A stretch of 64,000 nt of DNA from Elusimicrobia bacterium RIFOXYA2_FULL_47_53 (GTDB lineage Bacteria; Elusimicrobiota; Endomicrobiia; Endomicrobiales; XYA2-FULL-47-53), in contig MGVE01000017.1 of NCBI GenBank assembly GCA_001800315.1, positions 1 through 64,000 on the forward strand, read 5' to 3'. The notes below the pieces were generated by a model, which saw only the letters and a program-made list of their open reading frames with translations, made no database searches and was not told the DNA's origin. A program made the translations under genes and the position numbers. The first letter of the stretch is position 1. Each line of letters begins with the position of its first letter. Below are positions 24,356-64,000 of the stretch, one piece after another.

Positions 24356-26188
24356 TTAGAAAGTCGGCCCGCTTGAATTGGCCAGAGCGTTCCACTGGTC
24401 TTTCCATGAGGCGTCTCCGACGCCAAGCGCGTCATAAACATTTATCATGGTGTTGACCATGTTCTTGTAGAATGACTCGTTCTGCTTCATCCAGGTTTTG
24501 TTGGTAGTCCCGGCTTCGCCGACAACATAGCCGCCTTCATTTACTGTCATAGTAAGGTGGCCGTCAACACTGGCTGAAACATTTCCGGATATGGTTATCT
24601 CTTGGCCGACCTTGTCTTTCATGTTCGCGGCGGTTGCGGCGTCAACCTCAATTAATATTGTTTCGCCGTCCGCATCTTTCTGCCCTTTGCCGTCAAACAT
24701 GTCAACTCCGGATGCATTGACAGACAGGTAGTAGTGTGTAACCCCATTGGCATCTTTTATTGAGAGGACATCATTAATTGCGCCCGTAACCAATGGATCG
24801 CGTTGAGCATTTGACCCTAACGAAGATGCGCAAATATTCACTGTAAGTGACTTTTGCTGAGCAGAATCAAAATAGCTTAATGTGTTTGCTAAGCCGTCAG
24901 CTCCCATTTGAACAGTAAATGTTGAGTAAGGTGATTCTTTGGCTGCTGCCCGAATGGCATCTAATCCAAGAGTTTGACCTTCAATCTTCCAAGTAATTTT
25001 GGAGTAGCTCTGCAGAGGCTGGGTGCCAGGTTGAATTTGTGTTACATGTTGGTCATCAATAGGAACCGTTATGCCATCGCCAATTTTACCTTTTTCAATT
25101 GTTCCAACCTCAACACCGGTGGAGGTGAATAGCTTTCCATCTTTTTCGTAATACAACTTTCCATTTATGATATATGAATTTGCATCTTTGAGTCCAGAGC
25201 CGGCTGTTGAGGCTGTCTTGGTTGTGTATGCCCCTTGAGTGGTTGTGAGTGCATTTTTGCCTGTATCAGTCTTTGAGACAGTAACTGTTCCATCAGTATT
25301 TACTGTGCATTCGCCAGTCCATGAATTCGCTCCATTCATGGTGTTGTGCTTAACCACGACTTTTAAGCTCCCGTCAGCATTTTGCGTGAATGTGCCCCAG
25401 GAACCTACTTGATATTGACCTGTTGAAGCATTTCTGCGGACAAGGTTGCCGTTTGATGAAAGTCCGTAAGTAGTTCCGTCAATGGTGACAGATCCTACAA
25501 TGTGTTCTCCGGCAATTCCGCCTGTTACAGTGTCACCAATCTTAAATGTATTGTTGGGGTCAATAGCGCCTGTGCCACCTGTTATTGTTGAGAGATTGAA
25601 AACTCTCGCTAGTCCGGCATCGTCAAGGTTTGCTATCTGTGAACCGGTGAGAGAAACATTTGAAACATTTATGCCGGCTTCTTTCCAAGTTTTGCGGCCG
25701 GCTAAAACATCAGCAAAAGCCTGCTGAACCTGGGCTACTGTATAATTGTTGGTGCCTCCAGATGATCCATTGGAAGTAATAGTCAGCCCATCTTTTCCTA
25801 TAGCTCCACGGTCGACGGTTACTGCTGCTCCATCGATATAAAATGTGGTATAAACATGCGGTGCTCCATCCGCTCCATTTGAAGTAAAATCTGCAGAAGT
25901 TAAGTTGCCGGCTGCATTGTAGTGGCGAACAGAGAGAACTTTGTTATCTCCATCAGTTGTGTAAGCGAGTTGCCCCGCTATGTTGAAGTGCGATATCTGT
26001 GCATTTTGTCCGAGTCCGTCCGTAGATTTAGCTATCTGAAGTATGCCGTTGGCAGCATAAGAATAGGATGTCTGGCTTTGGATTAGATTTGTATTCCAGT
26101 TGTATCCCATTGATGTTGATGACAATACATTCAACATCATGAGTGCGGCTATGCTTGTTGAAAGTATTTTTGCGATTAGTTTTTTCAT
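24356..26188 (-). CDS. Secreted repeat-rich protein (cassette 3 large protein)
   Basis: 610 aa, AGGAGG upstream of the ATG at 26188. The signal peptide is M-K-K-L-I-A-K-I-L-S-T-S-I-A-A-L. The body is rich in G, N, T and D, with YD/RHS-like strand-turn units (H-Y-N-A-A-G-N-L-T). Residues about 110-200 (T-T-F-Y-I-D-G ... V-S-L-T-G-S-Q-I ... V-F-N-L-S) resemble a domain found twice in the YD-repeat protein at 26838-29657. The C-terminal third contains further beta-rich stretches. No enzyme motif was seen. It is probably exported to the periplasm or outside. Its Shine-Dalgarno sits in a 15-bp hairpin together with the stop codon of the small upstream gene, implying coupled translation. Confidence 0.7.
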   Translation of the reverse strand: MKKLIAKILSTSIAALMMLNVLSSTSMGYNWNTNLIQSQTSYSYAANGILQIAKSTDGLGQNAQISHFNIAGQLAYTTDGDNKVLSVRHYNAAGNLTSADFTSNGADGAPHVYTTFYIDGAAVTVDRGAIGKDGLTITSNGSSGGTNNYTVAQVQQAFADVLAGRKTWKEAGINVSNVSLTGSQIANLDDAGLARVFNLSTITGGTGAIDPNNTFKIGDTVTGGIAGEHIVGSVTIDGTTYGLSSNGNLVRRNASTGQYQVGSWGTFTQNADGSLKVVVKHNTMNGANSWTGECTVNTDGTVTVSKTDTGKNALTTTQGAYTTKTASTAGSGLKDANSYIINGKLYYEKDGKLFTSTGVEVGTIEKGKIGDGITVPIDDQHVTQIQPGTQPLQSYSKITWKIEGQTLGLDAIRAAAKESPYSTFTVQMGADGLANTLSYFDSAQQKSLTVNICASSLGSNAQRDPLVTGAINDVLSIKDANGVTHYYLSVNASGVDMFDGKGQKDADGETILIEVDAATAANMKDKVGQEITISGNVSASVDGHLTMTVNEGGYVVGEAGTTNKTWMKQNESFYKNMVNTMINVYDALGVGDASWKDQWNALANSSGPTF

Positions 26189-26198
26189 TGTAGTGTTC

Positions 26199-26250
26199 CT
26201 CCTTTTTTGATTTTTTGCAGTTACAAGGTGCGCTCAAATCAAAAAAGGAG
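26199..26250 (-). promoter_or_regulatory. Hairpin joining small-ORF stop and Shine-Dalgarno (cassette 3)
   Basis: On the minus strand, CTCCTTTTTTGATTT (26250-26236) pairs perfectly with AAATCAAAAAAGGAG (26213-26199) across a 22-base loop. The 5' arm contains the TGA stop of the 158-aa ORF (26241-26239). The 3' arm contains the GGAG of the 610-aa gene's ribosome site. A ribosome finishing the small ORF would open the stem. Confidence 0.7.
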
Positions 26251-26715
26251 AGGGTTGTCGCCCCTGGGGAGCGATGGAGTGGATAGCCTGACAGTTTGTG
26301 CGCGGAAAAAGACAGATGCGAATAGGGGGAATAATACCAGAAACGCAAGGTTTGGTTTGTAGTGGAGCGCTGAATCAAATATCGCCAAAAGCTTTGAAAG
26401 CGGGAGGATGGTAATCCTTGTTACGGCGACTGAAATATTGTTAGGTGTGGCGGCCCTGGAAAAAGCATCGTCATCCGGGAGAGGCGCTGAATTGTTATTC
26501 TCGGTATTTTCAATAGGTTTTATGTTTGCCGGAGGCAGTATTTTTTCAATTACAAGCATGCTGATTTCCATTACAGGCACCCATACGAAAGAATACACAA
26601 GAATAGGTTGCTTGGCGAGAGCCTCAATAAGAGCATTCCGGCTTAAGCGGGGATAGACCGCTTGAGCGAGAATTATAGGAATTATTAAGAGGATGATTTT
26701 GTTGATTTTATTCAT
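26239..26715 (-). CDS. Small polytopic membrane protein, cassette 3 leader
   Basis: 158 aa, start ATG 26715 preceded by AAGGGA. Four hydrophobic stretches are visible: an N-terminal one (I-I-L-L-I-I-P-I-I-L-A-Q) followed by Y-P-R-L-S, a second (V-Y-S-F-V-W-V-P-V), a third around residues 105-118, and a C-terminal one (L-A-F-L-V-L-F-P-L-F-A). Layout, length and the Pro-Arg motif match the small ORFs before the giant genes at 33614 and 52046. An overlapping plus-strand frame of 82 codons is judged a shadow. Function is unknown. The position suggests a leader or partner for the secreted protein downstream. Confidence 0.65.
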   Translation of the reverse strand: MNKINKIILLIIPIILAQAVYPRLSRNALIEALAKQPILVYSFVWVPVMEISMLVIEKILPPANIKPIENTENNNSAPLPDDDAFSRAATPNNISVAVTRITILPLSKLLAIFDSALHYKPNLAFLVLFPLFASVFFRAQTVRLSTPSLPRGDNPLLF

Positions 26716-26748
26716 ATTGTTATCCCTTAACTATCTCTATTGTTATAC

Positions 26749-26777
26749 ATTATAAATGTAAAATGCAAATAAATCAA
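26749..26777 (-). promoter_or_regulatory. Promoter of cassette 3
   Basis: On the minus strand TTGATT (26777-26772), 17-base spacer, TATAAT (26754-26749). The small ORF starts 34 bases after the -10. Two TTTCACA half boxes lie directly upstream (26780-26800). Confidence 0.7.
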
Positions 26778-26837
26778 GTGTGAAATATTTGTGAAATATT
26801 AATATAGGATATGTTCAACACTGCCAAGACACCAATA

Positions 26838-29657: not shown

Positions 29658-29693
29658 GGTTATTTTTGCCTCGCTTATGTTTTTCACATCATT

Positions 29694-29748
29694 ATTATAG
29701 TGTATTAGTATGAAAAAAACATCAAATATTTGAAAATTTTTTGTGAAA
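29694..29748 (-). promoter_or_regulatory. Putative promoter region and TTTCACAAA box of the YD-repeat gene
   Basis: A TATAAT -10 lies at 29699-29694 (minus). An AT-rich box TTTCACAAAAAATTTTCA lies at 29748-29731. No good -35 at standard spacing was found, so an activator at the box is possible. Confidence 0.4.
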
Positions 29749-29849
29749 TGTCATTAGTCAGCGGCAAGGGGGCAATGCTTTTCCGTTTGAAATAGAATAT
29801 CGAAACGAATGCCTTTAACTTACATCTTACCCCTTATCACTTACCGCTG

Positions 29850-30442: not shown

Positions 30443-30471
30443 TTGACAAAAGAAATATTTGCGTATATACT
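30443..30471 (+). promoter_or_regulatory. Promoter of the PorV-like gene
   Basis: TTGACA (30443-30448), 17-base spacer, TATACT (30466-30471), 28 bases before the start codon. Confidence 0.8.
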
Positions 30472-30498
30472 ATTATAAATTTCACGGAGGTGCGGATA

Positions 30499-32724: not shown

Positions 32725-32790
32725 AGCTTTTGCGCATTGTTCTGGTAATACTCCCACAGGACAGGTCTGTAAACTAAGGCGGTGTTCTGT

Positions 32791-33613: not shown

Positions 33614-34168
33614 ATGGGAAAAAGTGCAGCAATCATCCTGCTTTTTTCTATGCTGGCGAACACACTGTCGCCGCGCAGTTTTCTTTTTGACGAAAACAGC
33701 GGCCTTGTCGCCGGAGCCTTAGGCGCGCAGACTATGGTCGTCAGCGTTCTTCGCTTCCCTTTTCATCCCATGAAGGCTGTAAAGGAACTCTACGATAAAA
33801 AAACCCCTCTTCCCTTTTCTCCGTCTAAAAACAGCGGCAAACAGGGCCGCAGGACGGCCGGGGAATTTGAATATACGGTTTCGCTTGATAACCTGAAAGA
33901 CAACAGGTTTGACAACACCTTCATTCTTGTAAATACTTTGGTTTCCTGCTCGCGTTCGCTTACTTTAACCGTCGGTAATATTAAGAATAATTCTCCCGGC
34001 GGGAATACTTTCGCGGCACTTTTGATATTCCTGATGTTGTTTGCTCTGCGCCCGAGAAGCTCAATAAACAGCGACAATATATTTCCGATAAAATATACAA
34101 CTCTTAATCTCCGCCTCTTAACTGACGGCGGGGATTTTTTTACTTACGGTACAGGGGAGATTTTATGA
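33614..34168 (+). CDS. Small polytopic membrane protein, cassette 1 leader
   Basis: 184 aa from ATG 33614 (GGGTGA six bases upstream). Hydrophobic N-terminus, then A-N-T-L-S-P-R-S. A second hydrophobic stretch precedes H-P-M-K-A-V-K-E-L-Y. A weak third follows, then a clear C-terminal one (L-L-I-F-L-M-L-F-A-L) with R-P-R-S-S-I after it. The cassette 2 protein has V-A-N-F-L-V-P-R, L-P-M-K-M-V-N-D-L-F and L-R-P-R-S-A-I at matching positions, so they are paralogues. The last 20 codons run through a terminator-like hairpin, and the stop overlaps the giant gene start (ATGA). A partner, leader or regulatory role is inference. Confidence 0.7.
   Translation: MGKSAAIILLFSMLANTLSPRSFLFDENSGLVAGALGAQTMVVSVLRFPFHPMKAVKELYDKKTPLPFSPSKNSGKQGRRTAGEFEYTVSLDNLKDNRFDNTFILVNTLVSCSRSLTLTVGNIKNNSPGGNTFAALLIFLMLFALRPRSSINSDNIFPIKYTTLNLRLLTDGGDFFTYGTGEIL
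34106..34141 (+). terminator. Terminator-like hairpin inside the small ORF of cassette 1
   Basis: AATCTCCGCC (34106-34115) pairs with GGCGGGGATT (34127-34136) with one G-T wobble, and the T-run extends to 34141. The whole hairpin is coding sequence of the small ORF and lies 24 bases before the giant gene. A translating ribosome would prevent it from folding. Confidence 0.65.
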
Positions 34169-37100
34169 AAACAACTAACTTTTCGTCGGAGAGCCTTCTG
34201 CGAATGCCGCTTGGCATTCTGTGGAAAATGCTTTTTTCGTGGATAAGAAAAAACGCGAAAAAAATTACCGCGGTAAATGTAATTATGGTTTTTTTGTCGT
34301 TTGAAATGATGTGGGTCAGCGGCTACGCGAGCACCATTAAGGAAATTCAGGACAAAAAAGTCTCCGAGCAGGCATTGGGCCGATGGGATAAGAAAGTTGA
34401 ATTTAACGGTAAGTCAATTACTTACGCGCCAAACGGCGCGGCCAAGTCCGTAAAAGATAATAAGACGGGAATGACAGAGGATTTCATGGAAACTGACGGC
34501 AAGGTTTCCGTGATAATTAGCGATGCTCAGGGCAATGTATTATCTCAGAAAGAAATGTCTAAACAGGATTTTGTTAATTATTTTAAGGCGCTGACATCGG
34601 GCGATTCTTCCAAACCCGATAAAGACGCCTCAAATGTTCAGTATGGAAAAGTTAAGGTAGAAGATAAATCAGCAAAGAAGTCCGATGGCCAGTATAATCT
34701 GGACAGCGGCGTTAAACAGGCGGGAACCGCGAAATCAAATGTCGGCGGGCAGGTGGATCTGGCGGCGCTTGCCGCTCAGTCGTGGCAGAAGGAATATTCC
34801 GCGGCCAGCCTTTCCGGGAAAAAACAGATGGTGGAACAGGTTGGTATAACCGAGGCGGAAGCTCAGAATTTCTCTCGTGAGACCGCCAAAAAAGTTCAGG
34901 CTCACCTCGGTTTTACCGATAAGAAACAGGATGAAAGCGGCATAACGATAAAAGGCCTCGCTGATGTGCCCGAACAGATAGGCAGGTATGTAAATAAGGC
35001 GCTCGCGGGCATGGTTAATGTCGTAAAGAGCCTCGTTAAAGGAAAAGAGGGAAAAGAAGTTGAAGTCAGTATCGCGGATATCCAGGGCGCAGCGGAGAAA
35101 TACGGCATCCGCCTTAAGAGTTCCAGAGGGACGGTCACTGACCTGAAAGGTGTTGTCGCGGACGGGCCGGCGATAGCTCATTTGAACACCGGCGGCAAGA
35201 CGGGAACTTTCGTTGTTGTTAAAAGCATTGACGATGACAACGCTGCGATAATAAATTCGGATGGCAGTGAGTCAACCATTTCGGTTCAAGATTTTGAGGC
35301 CTCCTGGTCAGGGAAAATGATGTCGCAGAAATCTGACGGTCCGGAACTGGTAATAAGCGAGAAAAAAGAAACAAAAGGCAGGTTCTATAGTGAATTTTTC
35401 AGTTCAATAGGCAAGGTTTTCGGCGGCAGATCTGGTGATTTGAAAAACGCTGTCCGCGGTTCTCCTTCCGACACAGAGCCCGTGGTAGCTGGCGCTGTCG
35501 GCGGACAGATTTCAGAGGGAACGAAAACTGGACAGGTGTCGGATCTGAAAGGCAAACCAGGACAAGTCCAATCCTCAGCAAACGACCAGAGTGTAGTAGG
35601 TCAGACCATCAGTCAGATTGAAAAATTTCTCAACGATTTTGTTAATGCCAGCCCTGCCGAAAAAGCCAAAATGGCTGCCTCTCTTGGAGTTCCTGTCAGC
35701 CAGCTTGCCAATATAACCGCGGAAACTGCCTCAAAAATAATTGATTATCTTAAATCTCAGGGTGAGGGTATACTCAACTGCGCTGTGCAGTCGCTGTTCA
35801 ATCTCTTTGATTCTTCCGGGAAAAGCTACAGCAAGAGCGATGTGGCCGCAAAAGCGATTCTCGTTGATATTATAACAGGAAATGTTACAAAACAGGCGGA
35901 GCAGGGCGGTCCGTTGCGCCTGAGTATGAATGCCATACAGAAGACGGCCGGAGCGTACGGCGTTGACATGACCGGCTACAGTACGGATATGGCAGGACTC
36001 AAAGACGCGGTTGCCAATGGCCGCGGAGCGGTTGCATACATCAATACCCCCGATGGACAGGGCCATTTCGTTGTTGTCACAGGCGCGAAAGACGGGATGA
36101 TCACCTACACCGATGCTGACGGCAAGAGCTACACGGTCAGCGAGTCGGATTTTCAGTCAAAGTGGTCCGGCCAGGTGCTTTCCCAGGAAAAGGTAAAGAG
36201 CCCGAATGCCGTAGAGCTTGGGTTCTCGGCGCTGAAACAAACTATGGGCGCTTCTATGCCTCCATCAAATACTTATCCCACAGGCGCAGGCGAGTCAACT
36301 CCGGATCCCGATGCCTCAGCCTCGGCCCCGGCTCCTGACGAGGAATCTGGTGATAGTGACAGAGGTGATGGAAGGTCGGGGATTTATGGATTTGGTGGCG
36401 ACGATGATTCCGCCGCAAGAGCTGCTGAGGAAGCCAGGAAGGCAGCTGAAGATGCGAGAAAGGCCGCTGAGGAAGCTCAACGGAAGGCCGAGGAGGCCCG
36501 TAAAAAGGCTGAAGAAGCGCGCAAAGCAGCTGTTGATAGAGAAGAGCAGAAAGCGCTTGATAAGGCTGCCGATGAAGCGGAAAGGGCCGCCAAAGAAGCA
36601 ATTAGAAAAGCAGATGAGCTGGCTAAGATTGCTGATAAAACAAAAACATCCGCTGAAAGAAAATCTGTTGAGTCTGTTGCGAATTCGCAGCCGTCCGTCG
36701 GTGCCGATTCTCAGGATACGGCTGATGTCTCAGTAACAGGTAAGATGGTAAGAAGCGCTGAAAATGCCGCGGTTGCTCCCCAGCAGGCTCGCGGGACAAT
36801 GTCGGACATAATTAAAAAATCATTCGGTTTAAGCGGTACTGAGGATAAGGGCGAGTCAAATGCGCGTTCAAATATTACCGGTGAGACTGCAGATACGGCT
36901 TCCGGACTTCAGGATATAGCTAATCTAAGAACTTCCGTGGGGGCTGTGCCGTCTGACGAAGTGCCGTCTGCGGCATCTAGAGTAGTTGGTCCCAGATCAA
37001 TAGGAACAGAATCCTCGGATCAGGAGGAAACAGTTGATTCAGGGCGCAGCGCCATACAGGAAGGTTTGAGGAATGTTTTTGGGGATATTCCCGCACCTGT

Positions 37101-51963: not shown

Positions 51964-51992
51964 TTGACAACAGCGGTAAACTCGCCTATAAT
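51964..51992 (+). promoter_or_regulatory. Consensus promoter of cassette 2 (giant gene 2)
   Basis: Perfect TTGACA (51964-51969), 17-base spacer, perfect TATAAT (51987-51992). Located 150 bases after the giant gene 1 stop, so giant gene 2 has its own transcript start. Confidence 0.88.
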
Positions 51993-52045: not shown

Positions 52046-52555
52046 ATGAAAAAAGCGCTTGTGCTTATCATTTTAGCGGCGATGGTCGCCAACTTCCTGG
52101 TTCCGAGGTTTTCTCTGAGCCGGCAGGATAGCTTTACGCTCACGCAGATAATTAAAACGCAGTCCACTCTGCTTTACTTCTTTTCTCTGACGACGCTCCC
52201 GATGAAAATGGTAAACGACCTGTTTCACCGCTCGCAGAGCGCCCCTCTTACTTCTCAGGATAAACAGGATGGCAAGCCGCATAATGCTTCGGATACTTCG
52301 GCGGATTTCACCATTCTCTCCGCGAATAAAACAGTGGCTTCCGAGAGAAATGATCTCGGGAGCGCCTGGGTTCCGTTTGCTCTTGCTGAGGGGATAGAGC
52401 TTGTCGCCGGCAGGTTGTATAAACTATTTGGTACGGCTCAGGGGTCCGGTGTCCCTCTGATATGCATGCTTATGTTTTTTTTCCTTCGTCCAAGAAGCGC
52501 GATTGACGACATAATTTTTTCCTATACAAATAATAAAACCCAGCTTATAAACTAA
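52046..52555 (+). CDS. Small polytopic membrane protein, cassette 2 leader
   Basis: 169 aa from ATG 52046. A TTG at 52016 is the longer option. No clear ribosome site precedes either, so initiation may be weak or regulated. The N-terminal hydrophobic helix is followed by V-A-N-F-L-V-P-R. A second one precedes L-P-M-K-M-V-N-D-L-F, a third lies at about residues 110-125, and the C-terminal one is followed by L-R-P-R-S-A-I. It is paralogous to the protein at 33614 and similar in layout to that at 26239. The stop codon (52553-52555) lies at the loop/3'-arm edge of a perfect terminator. It precedes giant gene 2 by 44 bases. Confidence 0.7.
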   Translation: MKKALVLIILAAMVANFLVPRFSLSRQDSFTLTQIIKTQSTLLYFFSLTTLPMKMVNDLFHRSQSAPLTSQDKQDGKPHNASDTSADFTILSANKTVASERNDLGSAWVPFALAEGIELVAGRLYKLFGTAQGSGVPLICMLMFFFLRPRSAIDDIIFSYTNNKTQLIN

Positions 52556-52567
52556 GCTGGGTTTTTT
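52535..52567 (+). terminator. Perfect terminator between small ORF and giant gene 2
   Basis: AAAACCCAGCTT (52535-52546) pairs with AAGCTGGGTTTT (52554-52565), 12 perfect pairs, 7-base loop, T-run at 52562-52567. The small ORF is translated through the 5' arm and stops at the loop. Unless read through, it would end transcription 33 bases before giant gene 2. Confidence 0.85.
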
Positions 52568-52599
52568 CTTTGCTTAATTCTTACTTTTGAGAGGGTAAA

Positions 52600-55500
52600 A
52601 TGAACATTCAAAAACTTAAGCGGAAGCTGATGGAAGGCGTTGCCCGGCCGGTCTGGGGAACTCTTAACGCTCCGGTGCCGGTTCTTCTGGAAACGGCCTC
52701 GGAGTATTTTAGCTTTATCCGCGCGGTAGCTATTGTCACGGTCACATGCTTTATCGTCTCCTCAATAGCGGGGCCGGCCATTGCCCAGGTTTCGCAGGTG
52801 GCGGAGGAAAACAGAAAATACGCGCAGGTTTTTGATGATTTCGTTCTTCCCTATACGGCCGCCCGCATTACAGGAGCAAGCTATTCCGCCAGCCCCAGGG
52901 TTGTAATTCAGATACAGGACCTTCACTGTCACGGCGAAGTTCAGCGCAATATAAACAGGGTTTTAAGCCTTGTAAACGAGAAGTATCCGGTCTCAAAGAT
53001 CTATCTTGAGGGCGCCTATGGTTCTGTTGACACCTCCTGGCTTAATGCCATATCTGATAAAGAAATGCGGCAGGCTGTCGTTGAATCCCTCGTGGATCAG
53101 GGCAAGCTGACCGGCGTTGAATATTTCTCCGCTTCAGGAAACTCAGTTCCGGTTATGGGGCTTGAGGATAAGGATATATATAACGCAAACCTTTTGCGTC
53201 TTGGCAGGATACTTGATAGCCAAGCGGATGTGGATAAGGCGCTTTCAGGAATTGAGTTGGAGCTTGCAAGGCTTAAAGCCAGGTACTACAACCCTAAACA
53301 AAAGGCGCTTGACATTCTATCTGCCAAATACAGAAAGGAAGAGGTAAAAACCAACGATTTCTACCGCGAGCTTAAAAAATTAGGCGATAAAAACGGACTT
53401 GACATATACGAGTACAGGAATATGACGGCATTTCTCGGGCTTATGGAGCTTGAGAAAGAGCTCAACTACAAGAGGATAAGCCGCCAGCTGCAGGAGTTTA
53501 TAATAACACTCAAACAGCGCCTTCCCTACGACGCCTACAAGGTGCTTCTTGAAAAAATGAACGATTTCTCGCGTTTAGACGAGCTCTATGTTTACCTTAT
53601 TAAACTTGACCGCGATTTTAAGTTGGGACTTTCTAATACATTCCCGAATCTGAGCACTTTTTTCGCTTATATTGACGCAAGCCAGAAGGTAAATCCAGTT
53701 AATCTCGTTAATGAAGAGAGAAGGTTTGTGCGGGAACTGCAGAAAAAGCTTTCCGCCAATGCCACCGAGAAAGAAGTGGTTTTTATAGCGGATTTCTATT
53801 CAACACTTGCGGAATACTATACAAACCGCCTGACAGCGGAAGATTATGAATACTATTTGAAAAATGAAAGAGAATTTAAGGTATTGTGGTCCAAGTATTC
53901 GGATTCCTACTATTTGTCCGGATTAGAACCCTTTAACGCCATTCTTAACGACTACTATGTCGCCAACATTGAGCGCAACAGGCGTTTTGTCAAGAATATT
54001 CTATCGGCCTCGGATACCCCGGCTGGAACAGAGGCGTCGCCTTATGTTAATAGTGTTTCTGAAACGCTGAAATCACTGAAAAATGCGACTGAAATTGACA
54101 TTGTAGTAACCGGAGGTTTCCATACTTTAGGGTTGAGCGAACTGCTTGCGGAAAAGAATATTTCGTACCTTGTAATAACCCCTAATGTCACAAAGGACAC
54201 AAAGTATGCCAGCGATGTCTATAACGCTCTGGCTAAACAACAGTTCAAAGTTCTATTAGGAGAGGAGAGGCCTTCAACCTCGGCCCAAATCCAGGGCCAA
54301 ACGACCGATCGTTTTGCTAAGAACACGCCGCAGAAAGGCGCGTTAGCGTTGCCGGTTATTTCTGGAGATGAATGGGATGCGGGTTACATCCATTCCGCCA
54401 CCTTGGCTCAAGGTGGTTTAGGGGCACTTGTCAAAGCGAACAGCGATCCGAATTCAGTCGTAGGCCAAATCAACCGTGAAATTTTAAAGGACGGCAGAAT
54501 TAAGATGTCTTACAATGGCGAAAATGAGTATTCACTCCGCGACGGCAGTTACGGTAAAATAATACAAAAATACACCGTTACTCCGGAAGGTAATGTGGAG
54601 ATCGTTGGTTCAAGCGAATTCTCGTCAAAGCCCCAGGCGTTTGGCCTGACCAGCAAAACCCAGCTGATTAGCGAAGTCTATATTTCCATGCTTTCGGTAG
54701 GCGTGTCAGCCGTTCCTTTTATGAAATTAGCCGAGTACACCTTGGCTTTTCAGAATATGTCGGTAAAGGCGCTTGATAACTTAGTCGGCAAGTCAAGAAG
54801 TTATGACGGCAAAACTTTCAAAATAGTTAATGATAGCAGGCTTGAACCCGCCAGTCAAAAGGCTCTTGCCGCGCTAAAGACAAAATTGTTGGAGAGAAGA
54901 ACTGAGTTAAGGCAAATTACCGAGAAATTCGCCCCGGAAAACACAAACGGTAGAATGCCGGTCACTATCAATGTTGTAGAGGGCGATGTGCTGCCTATTG
55001 ACGATGATTCTCTCGCTTTTGCTACCGTTAAACTGGATAACGGCACGCTTGTTTTATATATCACGGAAGGGCTTTTGAAGAGTATTTCCAGGATTCCGGC
55101 CGGCGACAAGAAGGAAAGGATTATTAAGTCGCTGTTGCAGTGGGAATTGTCCGAGTATATTTATCTTAACGTGGCGGATAACGCGCTTGAAACAAAGGAC
55201 GGGCTCGGCCGTGTGGTAAGCCTGACTTATCGCGATTTCTACAATAAAGAGATGAAAGAAGCGCAGGTTAAAGGGGATAAGTGGGAGTTCGCGGAACTCT
55301 TTGCTTTTGCAGATAGGGAAAGGGCCAAACTGCAAAAGCTGGTCTATGAAGAAGCCAAGCGGGTTACATTGGTTCCGTCCACCAGAAACTCAATAGATAA
55401 AATTTCCGATCCGGTTGAAAAGAGGCAGGCTTACGCGGCAGCAATAAGGTCTGCGGTTAGAGCATGGACAATCTCGTATTTGAACGAATACAAGAAGGAG

Positions 55501-58500
55501 CGCGCGGGTGATTTAGTCGCGTTAGTTGGAGAAATTACTCCTTCAAGTTTCTACAGGAACGCCGAGAGCGATGAATATGTGTTCGCGGTTGAAGAAAATG
55601 CCAGGGCGTTATCTTTAGATGACTTGATTGCGGGGATAAGAGAAAAACTTGTCAATGATCAGCTTTTGGGGCTTGGTATCGCGAAGGGCAGTCAGGAGGA
55701 GAAGGATTTCTTTAGATTGGAAGCGAGAATACCTGAAGCTTTTTATTCTATAAGCAATGAGTTTAATAATCTTATGCCCGTTAAGGCGGTTTTAACAAAA
55801 TTAGAGGGGCCGCAGGATGCATTGACGGCTGCCGAGTTAAAGAATACGGACTTAGCGCGTAGCATTCAGGTCAAAGTTGTAATGAATGAGTTGAGTGACA
55901 AGGCCAATAAAATCAAGGCCGATCTTGTCCAAAAAGTGCTTCCGGCACAGATATACCGAAATATTCCAACAGCTTCCATTTTGGATCCTCTTATTAACAG
56001 GCTGAATATTAGCCAGTCGTTTGCCAAATTCTTTACGGTTATTCTTGCCCCGGGCTGGGAAACCATTGCCCTGTATTTCGCGTTTAACGCGTTTGGCTTT
56101 GGATGGGCGGTTCTTGGTTTTGCTTTTGCTCATACCATAGTGGACTGGGTTGTAAGAACCAATCAGGATGGATTGGCAAAGGCATTCAGCATTAATAATC
56201 TGAAAAGCGATATAAGTAAGTTCTCTGTTCGGTTGCTCCTCGCGGGCGCTTTTGTGGTTCCTTTTGAATTTTTCTCTCCTATAGCGGCCGGAGTAATAAG
56301 CTTTATTACTCACGCGGTATACAATTATGCCGTTCTCAGTAGAGGGTGGTCGCTGCCCCTGGCCTCTTTGACAACCCCAGCTTTTGATCTCAATAAAGAA
56401 AATAGAAAATTGCGGATATATAGATTCCTTGACGAAAAATGTGGCATCAGAACGGATAAGTTGAACTCTAAAGAAGTTTTCTGGAAGGACGGTGTTAGAA
56501 CTAATTTATATACCTGGATAGCTCGCAGGAGACTGCTTCCGGAAAGCACATTAACTGTCGCTTGGGGCGCTGCCCTTTCTGATGCGGCCTATATAAAGAG
56601 TCTTGATAAATCTAAATTAAGAGATTTTGCGGCCCAACAGGGTATTGATATTACAAATAGCAGGCAACCATGGGCTGATGTGACAAACTTATATCAGGAA
56701 AAATCAAGATTCTTTTCTTTGCTGCGTTCGGAATTATTTGGCTCAAAAAATATGACTTTTGACGAACTTAAATTTATTCCTGTCAGGGTAAACGATAAAG
56801 GCGAGTTTGAAATCATAGAATACCTGCTTGAAACAACAGATAAGAACGGTAACGATAAAACCTGGGTCTCTCGTGAGTTTGGATTAACTCCGTCAAAATA
56901 TTATTACGATAAGAAGCTTATGAAAGTGTCAATTAGACAGTATATTGACGGCTATTCGGCTGTTAAACAAGAATTGGATGAGAAAAATTTGTTCTATGAA
57001 GAAGAGCTTGACAGGCTGATTGAAACCGGCGAAATAAGTAATATTGGAAGATTCGGCAATATTATAAAGCCCGCTGTGATAGCGGTAGGTACATTCTTCT
57101 CAACAATGTTTTTAAGCGGCACGAGCTATGCGGCACAGGTTATTCAAAAAGGGGACAGCCTGTGGAAAATAGCTAAAAATCAATTGATAAATTCGGGCAT
57201 TTCGTCTCCCAGAAATGCCCAGATTTCTGAAATGGTAGACAAAATAAAGGAAGTAAATCCAGCCATTAATCCTAATCTGCTAAGAATTGGCCAGGAAATA
57301 AATGTTGATGTGGCGGAAAAAGTTCAGCCGAGTGTTCAGCCGCTTGTTGAAGCTGTAGCGAATACTCCGCAGGCCGCTGAAACTGCAGCCCAGGCAGTCA
57401 CAAATGTTTCAGCTAACGCAGCGCCGGCGGCTGATGTCGTTTCTCAGGCACTTCCGCAGGTAGCCGATGCCGCATCAAAACTTGCCGATTTTTATCAGGC
57501 TGTAGAGCCGGGCGCAAGGCAAGGCGCTGAAATTGCATATCCTGTCGTAAATGCAGTTCAGAATGCCGTGCCAGCCGTCAATACAGCCGTGCCTTCCGTT
57601 AACATGTTTGATTCACTGGTAACATCAATGCAATCCACAATTTTAGATGCTTTTACATACATTCAATCTATCGGTCAGTCATATCCGTCAATTGCGGCGA
57701 CAGTGGGAATAATAGCGATCGCGGTCGGAGTAGTCTTTTTGGGATACAAGGCATTCTTGCGAAATAAGGCAGTTGAAACTCTTGTTTTTAGGACAAAAGA
57801 TGAGGGGCTGAGAAGTAAGAACTTAACTTGGCTGTATGAATCTAATAGGCCAATAGCCTTAAATACTGCTGCAAAAGACTACACATTAAATAATGTCAGG
57901 GAAATAATAAAAATAAACAGGCAGAGTAAAAATGGTGTTGAAGGGTTAAGCGGTGGGAAGATAAAAGTTGATTACAGCGACTCAGTGTTGAAGCAATATT
58001 CTATTTATGAACTCTCAAGGCTTGTTGAGGAGATAATAAGGCCCCAGCTAAGCACAGGATCAAAAATCAGGCTTAGTGTGATAAACGACTTAAAGCGCGC
58101 GCCCGGAGTTTCAATCAGTCTGCTTTACAGAGTTACAAACGGAGCATTTGGAAGTGTCTCGCTTAATCTTGCGGGCCATCCCGAGGCACGGTTGTTGTAC
58201 GAGCAGGCCGGCATTTTCTTTGATTCCGGTTTAATAGTTCCGTTGTTAGCCATTGGAAAAGAGCTTTATGGCGCATCTTACGAGTTCCCCGAACCTAAAG
58301 ATGTCGGACAAGAAGAAAGTATGAAAGAACAGGAATCCGTTCTTGCAAAGTCTCTGGAGACGGCCAGAAGAGTAGCCGCTCAGGAAAAAAAGATAGAGAA
58401 GCCTAATGAAATGGATGCTCTCGCCTCTGAGGTTGTGACCTATATGCACGAAAAGGCGCGCTCCGGAATTCTGCTTCCTTGGCCGGTGTTTTCATTCCTA

Positions 58501-61500
58501 TATAAACGCGGTTTTTTCAAAAAGTCGGCAGAAAAGTTCAGGTACGCCGCCGAGGGCCAGCGCAGGTTTACAATGCCGGAGTTGTTGGTAAGCGGCAGGG
58601 TAGCTAAGCTCGCCTCAGTTAGGCTTGCGGCTATGGGAAAGGGTGACGCTGAAACTAAGAAAAAAGAGCTTGAGATTGAGCGCGCCAAGGCTGAGCCTGA
58701 TGCCGCAATAATCAATGAACTTGAGCGTTCAATTGACATGATTGAAGCCAATGGGAAAATTGAAGCTTTAAGAAAAGAATTAGATTCTATAAACGCCGAC
58801 ATTAAAAAACAGGCCAAACAGGGAGTTGACAATCCGCTGAAGGGCAATGCGCGCAAGGGTGCTATAGAGTTTGAGATTGAAAGGAGTGAATTCAATCTGC
58901 TTAATATGAAGTATCAAGTTCAGAGCGAAATTAGAAACGAGTTTATTGCTAAGTACCAGGCGCTTGCGAAAAAAGAAGTCGGCGATATGGATTTCTCTTC
59001 CTATGACAAGCTGTTTAATAATATAGTTGACAAGATTAATATAGTTGTTAAAGCCGCCGGCAATGATAAGGATATAGCCGATTTAAGCGAGATGCTCGGC
59101 CTTCCGTTAGAGGTGGTTGTGGGAGCCATTGAAGGGCACCGTATCGGCAGCGATAAACTTTATTTGGTAAACAGGTTAATAAAAGAACTGAATAGATACG
59201 GAAGCAAATACTCCTCCGCGCTTGAGATGCTTAACTACTACAAGTACGATGTTGAGGCAAGGGACTTTGTGGCTGGCCTTGTGAAAAACGCGGACACCAT
59301 AATACCGGATTCGTTTGTAAAGTCAAATCCCGCGTATTTCTATGAATGGTTTAGAATTTCCTTGCAGGCTTTCATGGGCCTCGGCATCTATGTGCTTCCG
59401 GCCTTAATATTTTACGGCACAGCTTTTGTGTTTATGCCCATTCCGATTATTTTCGGGGTAATATTCGGATTGATAACCTATTATGTCGCATGGGCTCCGG
59501 CGCACAAGTTCTCTCTTCATGTGACGGGTGTTTTTGTAAAATGGTTCGGCAGGGGCGTAAGGGGTCACGAGAGAATAAAATATATTGACAGATATATTGA
59601 CGACAAATATACGGCAGATGTTCCTTTGAGGGTTTCCAATGTAATCTCAAAGATTAGTGCGAGCGAGGATGATTTTGATGTTGCAATAAAATATCTCAGG
59701 CAGACTCTTGAAAGGGATATAGCGTTACTTAAAAGGCATCCTAATAATCTTGAATTTAACATAATAATCAGGTCTGATACCAATCCGTATAAGAGCGCGA
59801 GAAACAAGGAGATTGTTGACTATGAAATGAAGGTTATGCGGGAACTTATTGAGGAATACCGTGAGGAACTTCCCAATCTCAATATAGGCTATTTTAATAT
59901 GGGCGCAAGGGAATGGGTTAATAACACTAATGGCAAACTAGGTCAGGGCGGTTTTGGAATGAAAGCGGGTGGTATTGCCCTTCAGATGCAGTTGTTTGAA
60001 GAGGGATATACCAAATCAAGAATATATGTTGATGAGTCACACGAACATTCCATGCGTGACAACCCAGTCTTCTGTGCGGTTGTTGCAACAGATCTTGCTA
60101 AGATGCTGGGGCATGAAAAATCCCATGACACGAGAGATAAAGCGGCAAGGGGTGAACTCAATGAGAGTATTCATAGAGATATTCTTGCCGGTAATGACTT
60201 AAAGCTGACAAAAGATTACGGTTACAGAGATACGCTTTCATTGCTTTCTGATGATAAGAATATAGTGCTTGAGGTTGGAGAAACTGACAAAATGCTCGCC
60301 ATAATGCTTCATCCGGCTAACAAACATATAGTTATGACAACTCCTCACATTGTGGTAACGCCGCCATATATAGATGGTGTTCCGCAATCAAGCTGGTGGT
60401 GGAAACTTATGAAGGTCTCGCGGGATATTCATAACGAATTTAACGCCCGCCTGATGGCTAGTATTTACGGCAATGGATCTGCTTTCTTCGGGAAGGGGGT
60501 CGTAAGACAGGGTAAGTATTATCAAAATGTCTTCAAAAGAGAGACGCTTTCTATAGCCAGAATACTTTCTCATGATTGGCAGGAATCAATATTCAGTGTT
60601 TACACTGAAGCGCTCTACGGGTCACTGAATTATAGCGTTGAGATTCTGCAAAAGTCTGAAGATGAAATGCTTCTGCAGGTGAATCTTAACGACGATACCA
60701 GATTTGTTAAGATAGTTTTTGACAGAAAAAAAGGCCAGGTAGAGGTTTATGAAGAGGATTACGCAGGCGGGGATGGTAAATTTACTCTTGCGAAGGTCTT
60801 TTTGCTGAAAGATATATGCGTAAGTACCGAGTTTAACGATCTGGCCGGCATATTAAAGCTTTCGCCGGAGGCGGCCAAAGATTTTAAAGAGCTCCAGAGT
60901 AAGGAAGTTCTTAGAGTTTACGATTTAGTGTCATCTGGAGAATTGAAGAAAGTGAAAGATGAGAAGGATAAGAAAGAGTTTATAAGTAAAAAGTTGTCTG
61001 AATTTGAAAATCTGAGAGGTGTATCTAATCTCAGTGCTGCTGAAAAAGAAAAAGCGGTAGAGAATTACAAAAATGATTTGCTCGCGGCTTTTGATAAGAA
61101 ACATATTTTGGACAAGAAAATCGGGGCTCATATGGCGGAACTGGCCGAAAGAGCGGAGATTAAATTTAATGGCGACGCCCGCAAAATCGCGGAGTATATG
61201 TTGAGAAGAGGGAACGCTTATCAAAATCAACTGCTTGCCGAACTTAAATCGGCGGAACTGGCGAGGAATATCCCTATAATAAAAGCTCGTATGATTGATG
61301 AATTTGGCCACTTAATGACGATTGATCATGTGTCCAAGATTGTTACAAACTCTTACGGCAATTCTTACAGCATGGGAGAGCGCGATCAGCTAAATCCGCT
61401 GACCTATCTTATGAGAGATGCCAGATGGCTCCTGGGCGATATTCAGATGGCCAGGACAGAGCTTCCATATAAAGCATTTCTACCGCCTGCCCATCAAACG

Positions 61501-64000
61501 CATACTGAGGGAATTATGCGGCGTTTGCTTGGGAATTCATTTTTCCTTGCTTTTGTCGTGCTAAGCAATTTGATATGGATCTTTCCTACGGTATTAGCTT
61601 TGCCCGCCGTGGTGCCTATTCAGGTTGCTCTAATATTAATTACTGCGTTCGGGATTTTATATAAAGACAGGATAGGTGACCCGTTCTCGTATGCCGTAAA
61701 TATGGCAAAAGCAGAAGGAAGGGAGCTTTCGTTAGTGGGTAGGGTTGTAACATATATACCTCTGTTTTTTCAAGGTATTTTTGAGATCGTTGTAACAACA
61801 CTTGTTTCTTTGCTGCTGGTTGTCATTAGTCCGCTTATTACTTTCGCGATGTATTTGTACGAAAAAAGCGGAAAAAGCCCGTCGTGGACACCTTCCTCGG
61901 TTGTTTCAACAATGGAACTTAAAAAACCTATTTCCAGAAAAGAATTTGCCGATATGTCCGCGCGGCTTGAACTTGAAGGTCTTTCAAAGGATGAGATTCA
62001 AATGTTGAGGGATTCATTAAGTAAGGAAGGTAACGAGAAATCAGAGATAATTTCGTACATATTGCAAAGCGCGCAAAATCAGGGGTTGGATATTAAAGCG
62101 ATGCAAAAAGATATTAAGAGGATAGCCGGCGGAATAAGCCAAAAGGAATACAAAGATGTGCTTTTGTTTAAAGCGGTTAAGATTGGTATTTTTGCCGTTC
62201 TGACTTTCGGTGTGTTTATATGGCTTGGCGTAACCCCGGTAACGGCATTTTCGGTTTATGGCATTTTGCCACTTTCATTTTCTTTGCTTGGGGGTATGCT
62301 GGCAATGAGATGGGCTGGACAGGTAAGAGCGTATTCTTCTTCCAGTACTCCGCTTTGGAAAAAAGGAGTAGCTTCAGCGGTTTTGGTTTCCATAATGGCT
62401 GGTAGTGTAGCCGGAGTTATGACGGCAAGGTCTGTGCCCACTTACGATAAAAGCATGATTGAAAGAGCTTTGCCGCTGCTTTCAGAGAGCCCGGAAAGAT
62501 ATGGGTATAGCGAAGAGGTAAAAAAAGCCTTTGACCAAGTGAAGGAAAGCCAGGCCAGGGCAAATGCTTATGTGCCGAAAAGTACCGTGCCGGGCATGGC
62601 GCTCTCCGGGAAGATTAGCGATGTAGCGGCAGCTCAGGTACCGCTGACAAAAGTTGAGGCCAAACCCGGGGTAGTAATGACCAAGCCTGCCGCCAGTGTT
62701 GATGTGGTCCTTCCGCCTATAAATGCCAAGGCCGGAAGAATCAATACTGTTAGGGAAGTTTTTAGTGCTGATCTTTTGAAATTCATGAAGTATGCTAAAG
62801 TGAGAGCTGAAAGAAAGCCTCTCTCGGAAATATCGCTTCCTGATGAAGAAATAAAAAGAGGCGGCGGTGGCGAGTTGATTAAGACAGGCGCTGCGCTTGG
62901 TTTTAAAAGAACTCAAAAAAGTATTGCGTGGGCTGCCGTTCAAACCGTGGCAGCTTCGTTCTCGTCTTATATTGGTATTGGAATAAACCTGATTTCTAAG
63001 GTGGAAGCTATTGCTGTTATATGGGAGTACGGCGATAAATATCCATGGCTTTCTCTGACCGGCGATATCTCGTCAACTGTTTTCTGGTCTGAATCGCGGT
63101 TGTATGCCGACAGGAGTATGGAGGATTTTGCCAGAATATACAGGTGGGATGATATTGCCGCCATGTGGAAAGCTGGGGTGGCGGAAGATATCCCGGGTTA
63201 TGAACGATATGAATACCTTCAGACAGCCGTTGTGACATTGCATTACGCCGGACTGCCTGTTACCGAACAAAATGTGAATAAGTTTCTGGGCCATTTTACA
63301 AAAGAAAATATAAATAAATTGGTCGCAAAATATCCTGCTTTGGAGAACTCATTAAGGCCGTATCAACTGCTTCCGGAAAAAGCCAGGACAGGCATTAAAC
63401 TTTTCGGTATACTGAACCTGCTTCTTCCTCCGGGTATGGGCGTCCAGTTGCCGACTGATCTGCCGGTAATTACTTTAGCGCAGGTGGCACACCAGGTTAT
63501 TTCCGGGGACTCGGGCACCGTGGAGGTATTGACGGCGCTGGCAATAGCAAATGATATGACGCTTGAGTCGCTGCTTGATAGAATGGGTTTTGGGTATGTA
63601 AACGAGGCTATTGATAAGAAATGGGCTGTCAATGAAAAGGTTTTTGCCGAGTATGTAAACAGGTTCCAATCAGATATGAAGATGCAGGGTCTGGAAAAAC
63701 CCGAAGATTTCATGAAACCTGAATCCGTCACATTGTCTGCACATATGGCGAATTATCAGATGGTTGAGGCTGTTTGGGACACTCTTGTAAATGAAGGTTT
63801 GCGTTCGGGCCGTCCGTCTAACAACGAAATAAGGGAAATAGGCGAAAAACTGAATAATAATATGGTTGAGATGTGGGATATTTTCAGTGTCTGGGAAAGA
63901 GGGGGTAAGGAAAAGTATCCAAAAATATTTAAGCAGGCAATGATCTCTAAGGGTGTTGCTGATCAATATGCGATGAACATGTATCTGGCGATGGAGTTAG
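52600..64000 (+). CDS. Giant protein 2 (>3,800 aa, partial): LysM and OpgH/MdoH-like glycosyltransferase
   Basis: GAGAGGG precedes ATG 52600. I translated the frame to the window edge and met no stop. An N-terminal anchor lies at about residues 38-65. Residues 105-560 contain I-Q-D-L-H-C-H and V-V-T-G-G-F-H-T motifs, loosely like the TraB/ChaN/Tiki group (weak). Hydrophobic helices follow near 1150-1240. At about 1490-1512 a signal-peptide-like helix ends S-Y-A-A-Q, immediately followed by LysM (1513-1568, G-D-S-L-W-K-I-A-K). Residues about 2240-3040 resemble OpgH/MdoH: two membrane helices, S-D-T (D2393), a possible degenerate acidic motif E-T-D (2561-2563), I-L-S-H-D (D2659), D-A-R-W (W2943), then more helices. 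OpgH makes periplasmic glucans. Activity here is uncertain because the acidic motif is altered and about 280 residues are inserted between the last two motifs. The end is unknown. Confidence 0.8.
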   Translation, partial: MNIQKLKRKLMEGVARPVWGTLNAPVPVLLETASEYFSFIRAVAIVTVTCFIVSSIAGPAIAQVSQVAEENRKYAQVFDDFVLPYTAARITGASYSASPRVVIQIQDLHCHGEVQRNINRVLSLVNEKYPVSKIYLEGAYGSVDTSWLNAISDKEMRQAVVESLVDQGKLTGVEYFSASGNSVPVMGLEDKDIYNANLLRLGRILDSQADVDKALSGIELELARLKARYYNPKQKALDILSAKYRKEEVKTNDFYRELKKLGDKNGLDIYEYRNMTAFLGLMELEKELNYKRISRQLQEFIITLKQRLPYDAYKVLLEKMNDFSRLDELYVYLIKLDRDFKLGLSNTFPNLSTFFAYIDASQKVNPVNLVNEERRFVRELQKKLSANATEKEVVFIADFYSTLAEYYTNRLTAEDYEYYLKNEREFKVLWSKYSDSYYLSGLEPFNAILNDYYVANIERNRRFVKNILSASDTPAGTEASPYVNSVSETLKSLKNATEIDIVVTGGFHTLGLSELLAEKNISYLVITPNVTKDTKYASDVYNALAKQQFKVLLGEERPSTSAQIQGQTTDRFAKNTPQKGALALPVISGDEWDAGYIHSATLAQGGLGALVKANSDPNSVVGQINREILKDGRIKMSYNGENEYSLRDGSYGKIIQKYTVTPEGNVEIVGSSEFSSKPQAFGLTSKTQLISEVYISMLSVGVSAVPFMKLAEYTLAFQNMSVKALDNLVGKSRSYDGKTFKIVNDSRLEPASQKALAALKTKLLERRTELRQITEKFAPENTNGRMPVTINVVEGDVLPIDDDSLAFATVKLDNGTLVLYITEGLLKSISRIPAGDKKERIIKSLLQWELSEYIYLNVADNALETKDGLGRVVSLTYRDFYNKEMKEAQVKGDKWEFAELFAFADRERAKLQKLVYEEAKRVTLVPSTRNSIDKISDPVEKRQAYAAAIRSAVRAWTISYLNEYKKERAGDLVALVGEITPSSFYRNAESDEYVFAVEENARALSLDDLIAGIREKLVNDQLLGLGIAKGSQEEKDFFRLEARIPEAFYSISNEFNNLMPVKAVLTKLEGPQDALTAAELKNTDLARSIQVKVVMNELSDKANKIKADLVQKVLPAQIYRNIPTASILDPLINRLNISQSFAKFFTVILAPGWETIALYFAFNAFGFGWAVLGFAFAHTIVDWVVRTNQDGLAKAFSINNLKSDISKFSVRLLLAGAFVVPFEFFSPIAAGVISFITHAVYNYAVLSRGWSLPLASLTTPAFDLNKENRKLRIYRFLDEKCGIRTDKLNSKEVFWKDGVRTNLYTWIARRRLLPESTLTVAWGAALSDAAYIKSLDKSKLRDFAAQQGIDITNSRQPWADVTNLYQEKSRFFSLLRSELFGSKNMTFDELKFIPVRVNDKGEFEIIEYLLETTDKNGNDKTWVSREFGLTPSKYYYDKKLMKVSIRQYIDGYSAVKQELDEKNLFYEEELDRLIETGEISNIGRFGNIIKPAVIAVGTFFSTMFLSGTSYAAQVIQKGDSLWKIAKNQLINSGISSPRNAQISEMVDKIKEVNPAINPNLLRIGQEINVDVAEKVQPSVQPLVEAVANTPQAAETAAQAVTNVSANAAPAADVVSQALPQVADAASKLADFYQAVEPGARQGAEIAYPVVNAVQNAVPAVNTAVPSVNMFDSLVTSMQSTILDAFTYIQSIGQSYPSIAATVGIIAIAVGVVFLGYKAFLRNKAVETLVFRTKDEGLRSKNLTWLYESNRPIALNTAAKDYTLNNVREIIKINRQSKNGVEGLSGGKIKVDYSDSVLKQYSIYELSRLVEEIIRPQLSTGSKIRLSVINDLKRAPGVSISLLYRVTNGAFGSVSLNLAGHPEARLLYEQAGIFFDSGLIVPLLAIGKELYGASYEFPEPKDVGQEESMKEQESVLAKSLETARRVAAQEKKIEKPNEMDALASEVVTYMHEKARSGILLPWPVFSFLYKRGFFKKSAEKFRYAAEGQRRFTMPELLVSGRVAKLASVRLAAMGKGDAETKKKELEIERAKAEPDAAIINELERSIDMIEANGKIEALRKELDSINADIKKQAKQGVDNPLKGNARKGAIEFEIERSEFNLLNMKYQVQSEIRNEFIAKYQALAKKEVGDMDFSSYDKLFNNIVDKINIVVKAAGNDKDIADLSEMLGLPLEVVVGAIEGHRIGSDKLYLVNRLIKELNRYGSKYSSALEMLNYYKYDVEARDFVAGLVKNADTIIPDSFVKSNPAYFYEWFRISLQAFMGLGIYVLPALIFYGTAFVFMPIPIIFGVIFGLITYYVAWAPAHKFSLHVTGVFVKWFGRGVRGHERIKYIDRYIDDKYTADVPLRVSNVISKISASEDDFDVAIKYLRQTLERDIALLKRHPNNLEFNIIIRSDTNPYKSARNKEIVDYEMKVMRELIEEYREELPNLNIGYFNMGAREWVNNTNGKLGQGGFGMKAGGIALQMQLFEEGYTKSRIYVDESHEHSMRDNPVFCAVVATDLAKMLGHEKSHDTRDKAARGELNESIHRDILAGNDLKLTKDYGYRDTLSLLSDDKNIVLEVGETDKMLAIMLHPANKHIVMTTPHIVVTPPYIDGVPQSSWWWKLMKVSRDIHNEFNARLMASIYGNGSAFFGKGVVRQGKYYQNVFKRETLSIARILSHDWQESIFSVYTEALYGSLNYSVEILQKSEDEMLLQVNLNDDTRFVKIVFDRKKGQVEVYEEDYAGGDGKFTLAKVFLLKDICVSTEFNDLAGILKLSPEAAKDFKELQSKEVLRVYDLVSSGELKKVKDEKDKKEFISKKLSEFENLRGVSNLSAAEKEKAVENYKNDLLAAFDKKHILDKKIGAHMAELAERAEIKFNGDARKIAEYMLRRGNAYQNQLLAELKSAELARNIPIIKARMIDEFGHLMTIDHVSKIVTNSYGNSYSMGERDQLNPLTYLMRDARWLLGDIQMARTELPYKAFLPPAHQTHTEGIMRRLLGNSFFLAFVVLSNLIWIFPTVLALPAVVPIQVALILITAFGILYKDRIGDPFSYAVNMAKAEGRELSLVGRVVTYIPLFFQGIFEIVVTTLVSLLLVVISPLITFAMYLYEKSGKSPSWTPSSVVSTMELKKPISRKEFADMSARLELEGLSKDEIQMLRDSLSKEGNEKSEIISYILQSAQNQGLDIKAMQKDIKRIAGGISQKEYKDVLLFKAVKIGIFAVLTFGVFIWLGVTPVTAFSVYGILPLSFSLLGGMLAMRWAGQVRAYSSSSTPLWKKGVASAVLVSIMAGSVAGVMTARSVPTYDKSMIERALPLLSESPERYGYSEEVKKAFDQVKESQARANAYVPKSTVPGMALSGKISDVAAAQVPLTKVEAKPGVVMTKPAASVDVVLPPINAKAGRINTVREVFSADLLKFMKYAKVRAERKPLSEISLPDEEIKRGGGGELIKTGAALGFKRTQKSIAWAAVQTVAASFSSYIGIGINLISKVEAIAVIWEYGDKYPWLSLTGDISSTVFWSESRLYADRSMEDFARIYRWDDIAAMWKAGVAEDIPGYERYEYLQTAVVTLHYAGLPVTEQNVNKFLGHFTKENINKLVAKYPALENSLRPYQLLPEKARTGIKLFGILNLLLPPGMGVQLPTDLPVITLAQVAHQVISGDSGTVEVLTALAIANDMTLESLLDRMGFGYVNEAIDKKWAVNEKVFAEYVNRFQSDMKMQGLEKPEDFMKPESVTLSAHMANYQMVEAVWDTLVNEGLRSGRPSNNEIREIGEKLNNNMVEMWDIFSVWERGGKEKYPKIFKQAMISKGVADQYAMNMYLAMEL

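Follow-up and report, generated by a model that had tools for sequence, protein, structure and literature searches.

Small membrane-protein genes ending in a terminator-like element precede giant exported-protein genes in Endomicrobiales: a candidate translation-gated attenuator

The window analyzed was a 64,000-nt stretch of Elusimicrobia bacterium RIFOXYA2_FULL_47_53 (contig MGVE01000017.1, positions 1 to 64,000), and its features of interest are collected in Table 1. A first-pass annotation had described three copies of one cassette, each composed of a promoter, a small membrane protein, a hairpin over the 3' end of the small ORF, and a very large exported protein. Copies 2 and 3 conformed to this description in their downstream proteins, and their small proteins carried the P-R, P-M-K and L-R-P-R-S-x-I motifs as reported. 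Copy 1 did not belong with them, as its partner is only 610 aa long and its small protein was not matched by the family profile. A promoter matching the sigma-70 consensus was present before copy 3; none of that quality was found before copy 2.

Table 1. Positions of the genes and sequence elements at the three loci of the window
Feature	Position	Strand	Remarks
Copy 1, small membrane protein (separate small subfamily)	26239..26715	-	158 aa; relatives in just two other genomes; weak profile similarity to family
Copy 1, hairpin	26198..26251	-	-20.7 kcal/mol, z -4.7; covers Shine-Dalgarno site of the 610-aa ORF; without U-tract
Copy 1, downstream ORF	24356..26188	-	610 aa; N-terminal signal-like segment; no Pfam match
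Copy 2, small membrane-protein (putative leader) ORF	33614..34168	+	184 aa + stop; profile E 3e-39
Copy 2, conserved Arg codon	34055..34057	+	AGA, R148; 54 nt to hairpin core
Copy 2, terminator-like hairpin and U-tract	34106..34142	+	Entirely within small ORF; -17.8 kcal/mol, z -5.3
Copy 2, giant exported-protein ORF	34165..51813	+	5882 aa; 4-nt overlap (ATGA) with small ORF
Copy 3, sigma-70-like promoter	51964..51992	+	TTGACA-17-TATAAT; consensus matches 12/12
Copy 3, small membrane-protein (putative leader) ORF	52046..52555	+	169 aa + stop; profile E 4e-48; homologues in relatives
Copy 3, conserved Arg codon	52493..52495	+	AGA, R150, closes last hydrophobic segment; near-invariant column; 46 nt to hairpin core
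Copy 3, terminator-like hairpin and U-tract	52535..52570	+	-18.0 kcal/mol, z -5.4; 13-bp stem, T-run
Copy 3, giant exported-protein ORF	52600..64000 (window edge)	+	8798 aa; contig end position 78996

The hairpins were found where the annotation had placed them. In copies 2 and 3 they are also terminator-like, which it had not mentioned: a run of T lies directly 3' of each. The stop codon of the copy 3 small ORF (52553-52555) lies within the loop region of the hairpin, and 44 nt separate this ORF from the giant ORF. In both copies the Shine-Dalgarno site of the giant is free and lies 3' of the terminator with its U-tract.

Homologues of the 169-aa protein were present in 31 of 99 relatives. 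Among 340 genomes of the phylum, a family profile (A3) built from 26 members matched 45 when the cutoff was set at E 0.01. Nearly all of these were in one order, and the strong matches were all within Endomicrobiales. The relatives that bear names (Candidatus Ruminimicrobiellum, Praeruminimicrobium and Endomicrobiaceae) are Elusimicrobiota of the Endomicrobia, not Omnitrophota as had been supposed, and Endomicrobiales is their order (PMC11257099). Ten genomes scored in full contained 3-14 members each. No Pfam or NCBIfam model matched the small proteins, a search of the genome contigs with the single 169-aa protein gave no matches, and no description of the family or of the arrangement was found in the open-access literature searched.

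Nine pairs of close homologues gave dN/dS values of 0.12-0.33, which indicated that the small protein itself is under purifying selection. Two hydrophobic segments, rather than the four or so first counted, were conserved throughout the family. One is N-terminal and preceded by a positive N-terminus, an N-terminal topogenic segment such as monitoring peptides possess. The other lies directly before a near-invariant Arg, in contexts such as LLPRG, LLTRR and LLSRS. The middle of the proteins carries the motifs P-x-K-I-V-N-x-L-F and N-T-S-A-D-F-S-L. An AlphaFold model of the small protein was unusable (pLDDT 43).

The evidence is the sequence of draft, mostly metagenome-assembled genomes, in which many giants are cut by contig ends. 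The association with giants was counted only for the 76 members followed by 4.5 kb of sequence or more, and members had been collected by sequence similarity alone, with no use of position. Of these 76, 69 had an ORF of 1,500 codons or longer within 150 nt, and 71 had one starting within 1.5 kb. In the genome of the window, on the other hand, ORFs of that length numbered only 15 among the 648 that reach 80 aa (895 kb, a 37% sample). The same 895 kb contained seven members, each directly 5' of an ORF of 1282-9296 aa. In seven further cases the small protein and the giant were fused in frame. The profile search and the count of members before giants had both been set beforehand, and their outcome upheld, for copies 2 and 3, the proposal of an undescribed module made up of a small membrane protein and a giant protein.

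Giants without a partner also exist in this genome (17,343, 4650 and 4230 aa), so that the pairing is not a property of all long genes. The 17,343-aa ORF (G000 contig C6, 90170-142201, minus strand) has neither a small partner nor a terminator. The reverse case was seen at locus L053 of genome G007b (3037-3565, plus strand), where a family member with an intact terminator has no giant downstream. Such an orphan leader could reveal what the small protein does alone.

The giants are related at their N-termini. An N-terminal signal-like segment and a domain with IQDLHCHPEVQRNI ... GGFHT ... ITPNVT were common to 79 of 94 partnered giants. All five copies of this domain in the genome of the window have a small partner beside them, and among 34 loci of the order that carry the domain, 31 had the small partner and 33 the terminator-like element. 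In other classes of the phylum the domain occurred 12-55 times per genome (ten genomes, e.g. G266, G264, G258 and G105), mostly in ORFs of 1,500-12,000 codons that have no small partner. At 28 such loci the small family was found in none and terminators in four. The pairing thus looks like an addition within one order, and the small gene is a marker for a class of giants whose N-terminal domain is widespread in Elusimicrobiota (up to 55 matches per genome).

The domain gave one Pfam match, to the Tiki/ChaN/TraB superfamily at E 0.23, and no PDB sequence match; its model (pLDDT 59) had no fold match. Further along, the copy 3 giant gave Pfam matches to LysM, HEAT and Glyco_transf_5. The copy 2 giant contains two Peptidase_C39-like stretches near its N-terminus, a weak ResIII-like match, and a helicase-like stretch (NPTAAGKT, LDEAH) near residue 4400. 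Very large exported ORFs with few known domains are also described in uncultured Omnitrophota (PMC10066038). These belong to a different phylum, and the passages of that report that matched the search mention no small upstream gene or terminator.

The junctions between small and giant ORFs were then scored for a T-run behind a stem with a folding energy of -10 kcal/mol or lower, in a fixed window from -75 to +60 around the stop codon of the small ORF. The terminator finder and the motif finder were our own scripts with set thresholds. At 85 of 98 junctions the element was present. It occurred in 5 of 294 dinucleotide shuffles, and at 6 of 330 ends of other closely spaced co-directional genes in the genome of the window. 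Ten more junctions had it further 5', still within the small ORF, and two (in G015 and G055) had no clear element.

Relative to the stop codon, the 93 elements examined all began inside the ORF or at most 13 nt past the stop. A ribosome at the end of the leader would reach that far, its limit being about 27 nt. In 54 of the elements the hairpin contained the stop codon, and in 33 the ORF contained the whole stem. Of 47 terminators at other genes of the same genome, by comparison, 29 began more than 15 nt past the stop and two contained the stop codon. All seven in-frame fusions retained the hairpin and the T-run at the old junction, where the T-run reads RVFYL or similar. RVFYL was at first a candidate C-terminal protein motif, and was discarded as the GGGTTTTTTATTTG of the terminator translated in frame.

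Two variants of the junction were noted. In loci of genus g10 (e.g. L183, L184 and L189), a second short hairpin (TTTTTGTG ... CACAAAAA) lies just past the T-run and separates the terminator from the giant's Shine-Dalgarno site. In two other families of the phylum (L268, 472-1255; L270, reverse strand; L272, 439-1204), small ORFs of 254-288 aa overlap the start of the giant by 1-4 nt and, 50-79 nt ahead of their stop, contain a terminator-like hairpin. The layout is the same with a different leader, as no similarity of these ORFs to the small-protein family was detected.

To locate the hairpin relative to the peptide, distances were measured from the conserved Arg codon as zero point. The motif was placed automatically at 81 loci, of which 78 entered the means; the three excluded values (5, 7 and 191 nt) were probable misplacements of the motif. 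A further 25 loci gave no value because the script found no motif or no hairpin.

The distance from the Arg codon to the hairpin core was about 51 nt overall, with a standard deviation of about 4. It was 51.0 nt where the stop codon lies inside the hairpin (sd 5.2, n=38), 50.7 nt where the hairpin is entirely within the ORF (sd 3.1, n=27), 52.2 nt where it follows the stop (sd 3.3, n=6), and 52.1 nt in the fusions (sd 1.5, n=7). The distance from the Arg codon to the stop, on the other hand, varied from 39 to 471 nt. When the offsets between hairpin and stop were shuffled among loci, none of 20,000 permutations gave an equally tight distribution. This indicated that the hairpin is tied to a feature of the peptide and not to the stop codon.

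Simple arithmetic on this spacing would place the last hydrophobic segment 13-33 residues from the peptidyl transferase centre when the ribosome reaches the hairpin, a position within the exit tunnel. A decision at the hairpin would then fall while the segment is still within the ribosome, and the position of the segment in the tunnel may have a role.

Terminators within reach of a translating ribosome have been studied in other bacteria. When a terminator lies a few bp past a stop codon, the translating ribosome represses it almost completely; beyond about 27 nt it is fully active (PMC4824070). A leader with its stop codon inside a terminator switches on pilus transcription (PMC3894217), and expression of E. 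coli pyrE depends on where translation of rph ends relative to the attenuator (PMC2784333). From these precedents, the element described here should admit polymerase to the giant gene only with a ribosome close behind.

The layout is close to that of pyrBI and rph-pyrE of Escherichia coli, where a translated ORF reaches or crosses an intrinsic terminator before the regulated gene and a close ribosome prevents termination (PMC4824070, PMC2784333). In those systems UTP is the signal, and a short peptide or an unrelated RNase serves as leader, whereas the leader here is a conserved membrane-protein family, the regulated genes encode giant exported proteins, and the layout recurs 3-14 times per genome. 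In pil1 of Streptococcus gallolyticus, surface-protein genes are likewise turned on when the stop codon of the leader lies within or after the terminator hairpin (PMC3894217). The pil1 leader, however, is a repeat-containing, phase-variable peptide, while the present one is under purifying selection, with its hairpin locked to a peptide feature.

We interpreted the cassette as a translation-gated transcription attenuator placed before a giant gene, with a leader that is itself a conserved membrane protein. We hold this interpretation with moderate confidence. The arrangement suggested that the giant is transcribed only when the small protein is translated on time. RNA polymerase would start from a single promoter and transcribe the leader cistron first, and would meet an intrinsic terminator at its end, in the stretch that the ribosome reads or covers. 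With a ribosome close behind, the hairpin would be blocked and polymerase would continue into the giant gene, which is 4 to about 35 kb long. Were the leader translated late, or inserted late into the membrane, the hairpin would form and transcription would end some 600 nt from its start.

The end of the last hydrophobic segment would set the position of the hairpin (51 nt, or 17 codons), so that the decision would be taken with the segment in the exit tunnel. The cell would thereby commit itself to a giant exported protein only if the leader were made, and perhaps inserted, on schedule. The scheme presupposes coupled transcription and translation in Elusimicrobiota; termination at the hairpin, its suppression by the ribosome and the signal sensed are its predicted elements.

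As expected of an attenuator, a translated leader, judged from its dN/dS, lies directly 5' of the regulated gene. Pairing of the terminator arms with upstream RNA was also sought, and the mean duplex energy (-7.5 kcal/mol) resembled that of shuffles (-7.0 kcal/mol, sd 2.5). The mutually exclusive antiterminator pairing of the trp type was thus not found, and the pyrBI type needs none. For this reason ribosome occupancy as in pyrBI is preferred over a switch as in trp.

The annotation had offered insertion, export and regulation as roles for the partnership. Regulation is the best supported of the three, because the terminator-like hairpin overlaps the translated end of the small ORF. A partnership in export or insertion is possible, in view of the seven fusions and the purifying selection. 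A pure attenuator leader would need no conserved protein sequence. Since the sequence is conserved and fusions exist, the small protein probably has a further function of its own besides its role as leader.

Alternatively, the small protein could be a dedicated membrane partner of the giant (an insertase, an export chaperone or an anchor), with the terminator serving only to reduce giant mRNA and so to leave the small protein in excess. The obligate adjacency, the in-frame fusions and the purifying selection would all follow, and the two hydrophobic segments would suit a partner of a giant that starts with its own signal-like segment. A terminator that sets stoichiometry, however, should follow the stop codon, as it does in the other genes of the genome, and not lie over the translated region. 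It would also have little purpose in the fused genes, which retain it although they have no separate small mRNA to favour. An export role is backed by neither structure, motif nor family. We consider this alternative possible, if rather unlikely.

The fixed spacing allows a more specific form of gating. The leader would be a nascent-chain ruler: whatever happened to the last hydrophobic segment inside the exit tunnel would slow or release the ribosome, and the terminator, placed 17 codons further on, would decide between transcription of the giant and none. This reading is speculative, and we consider it rather unlikely. If it were true, membrane-insertion capacity would directly gate transcription. 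We know of no arrest-peptide system that gates transcription in this manner.

A related alternative takes the leader to be an arrest or force-sensing nascent chain in the manner of SecM, MifM and VemP, acting on transcription. The ribosome would pause at LLPR until Sec pulled on the nascent chain; while paused, it would leave the hairpin free and the giant off, and once released it would open the hairpin and turn the giant on. The constant distance from LLPR to the hairpin and the near-invariance of the Arg are consistent with such a pause, as is the computed presence of the segment in the tunnel at the time of decision. Equally, LLPR could be just the positive flank of a membrane segment. The Arg codon was AGA or AGG in 62 of 71 cases, against 52 expected, a mild skew; AGA and AGG are common in most of these genomes, and pausing at a rare Arg codon was rejected on this ground.

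No arrest sequence known from the literature was recognized in the leaders. SecM, MifM, VemP and ApcA/ApdA/ApdP do resemble the cassette in having a small exported or membrane protein of ~80-200 aa directly upstream and a regulatory RNA hairpin at the junction (PMC7897499). In SecM, however, the hairpin hides the Shine-Dalgarno site and stalling raises translation, whereas copies 2 and 3 carry terminators and no such hairpin. The gene downstream of SecM encodes a Sec component, and those of the others Sec or YidC components. Here the downstream gene encodes a possible client, and the C39-like, LysM, HEAT and GT5 stretches of the giants include no Sec or YidC component. An arrest chain of this kind is unlikely in our judgement, even with the SecM-like features of copy 1 (below) counted in its favour.

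The hairpin might instead be an mRNA processing or stability element at the cistron boundary, unrelated to termination. At the end of a cistron, a stable stem-loop can shield the mRNA that precedes it. Such a hairpin would not need a T-run, yet the T-run is retained throughout, fused genes included, which makes this explanation improbable. Lastly, small membrane proteins occur beside very large secreted proteins in polymorphic toxin systems, and the small gene could confer immunity against a toxic giant. We regard this as highly improbable: the gene precedes the giant, its conservation extends across giants whose bodies differ, and in seven cases it is joined to the giant's N-terminus, a fusion not expected of an immunity protein.

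Several uncultured phyla commonly have exported-protein genes that are 10-50 kb long. To our knowledge, it has not been explained how cells keep from spending transcription and translation on such genes in vain. An attenuator of the proposed type would be a concrete candidate for a commitment check built in at giant genes and recurring across one bacterial order. The 51-nt rule from the end of the membrane segment to the terminator is sharp and quantitative, and can be tested with reporters in an ordinary laboratory strain.

Copy 1 differed from the attenuator-like cassettes. Its 158-aa protein was unmatched by the family profile in a search of 3631 ORFs, and profile-profile comparison of its subfamily with the family gave weak similarity (P 7e-4, probability 26%). 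Its two relatives, in G003 and G004, end in LMPRSDIP and LARSDVPA, which are similar to the family motif. The ORFs 3' of these relatives run to the ends of their loci, with 454 and 472 aa visible, and no obvious counterpart of the copy 1 hairpin was seen at either locus (L298 and L299).

With a 610-aa partner, no profile match and a hairpin that has no U-tract, copy 1 was rejected as an equal member of the family. Its layout resembles that of SecM: the hairpin hides the Shine-Dalgarno site, and the stop codon of the small ORF lies in the 5' arm. Copy 1 is possibly a distant branch of the family at most, with translational rather than transcriptional control.

Directly 5' of copy 1 lies an exported-looking ORF of 949 aa (26838-29687, minus strand) with no Pfam match. 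ORFs open at the locus edge occupy the same place in L298 and L299, and the copy 1 locus may therefore represent a conserved three-gene unit.
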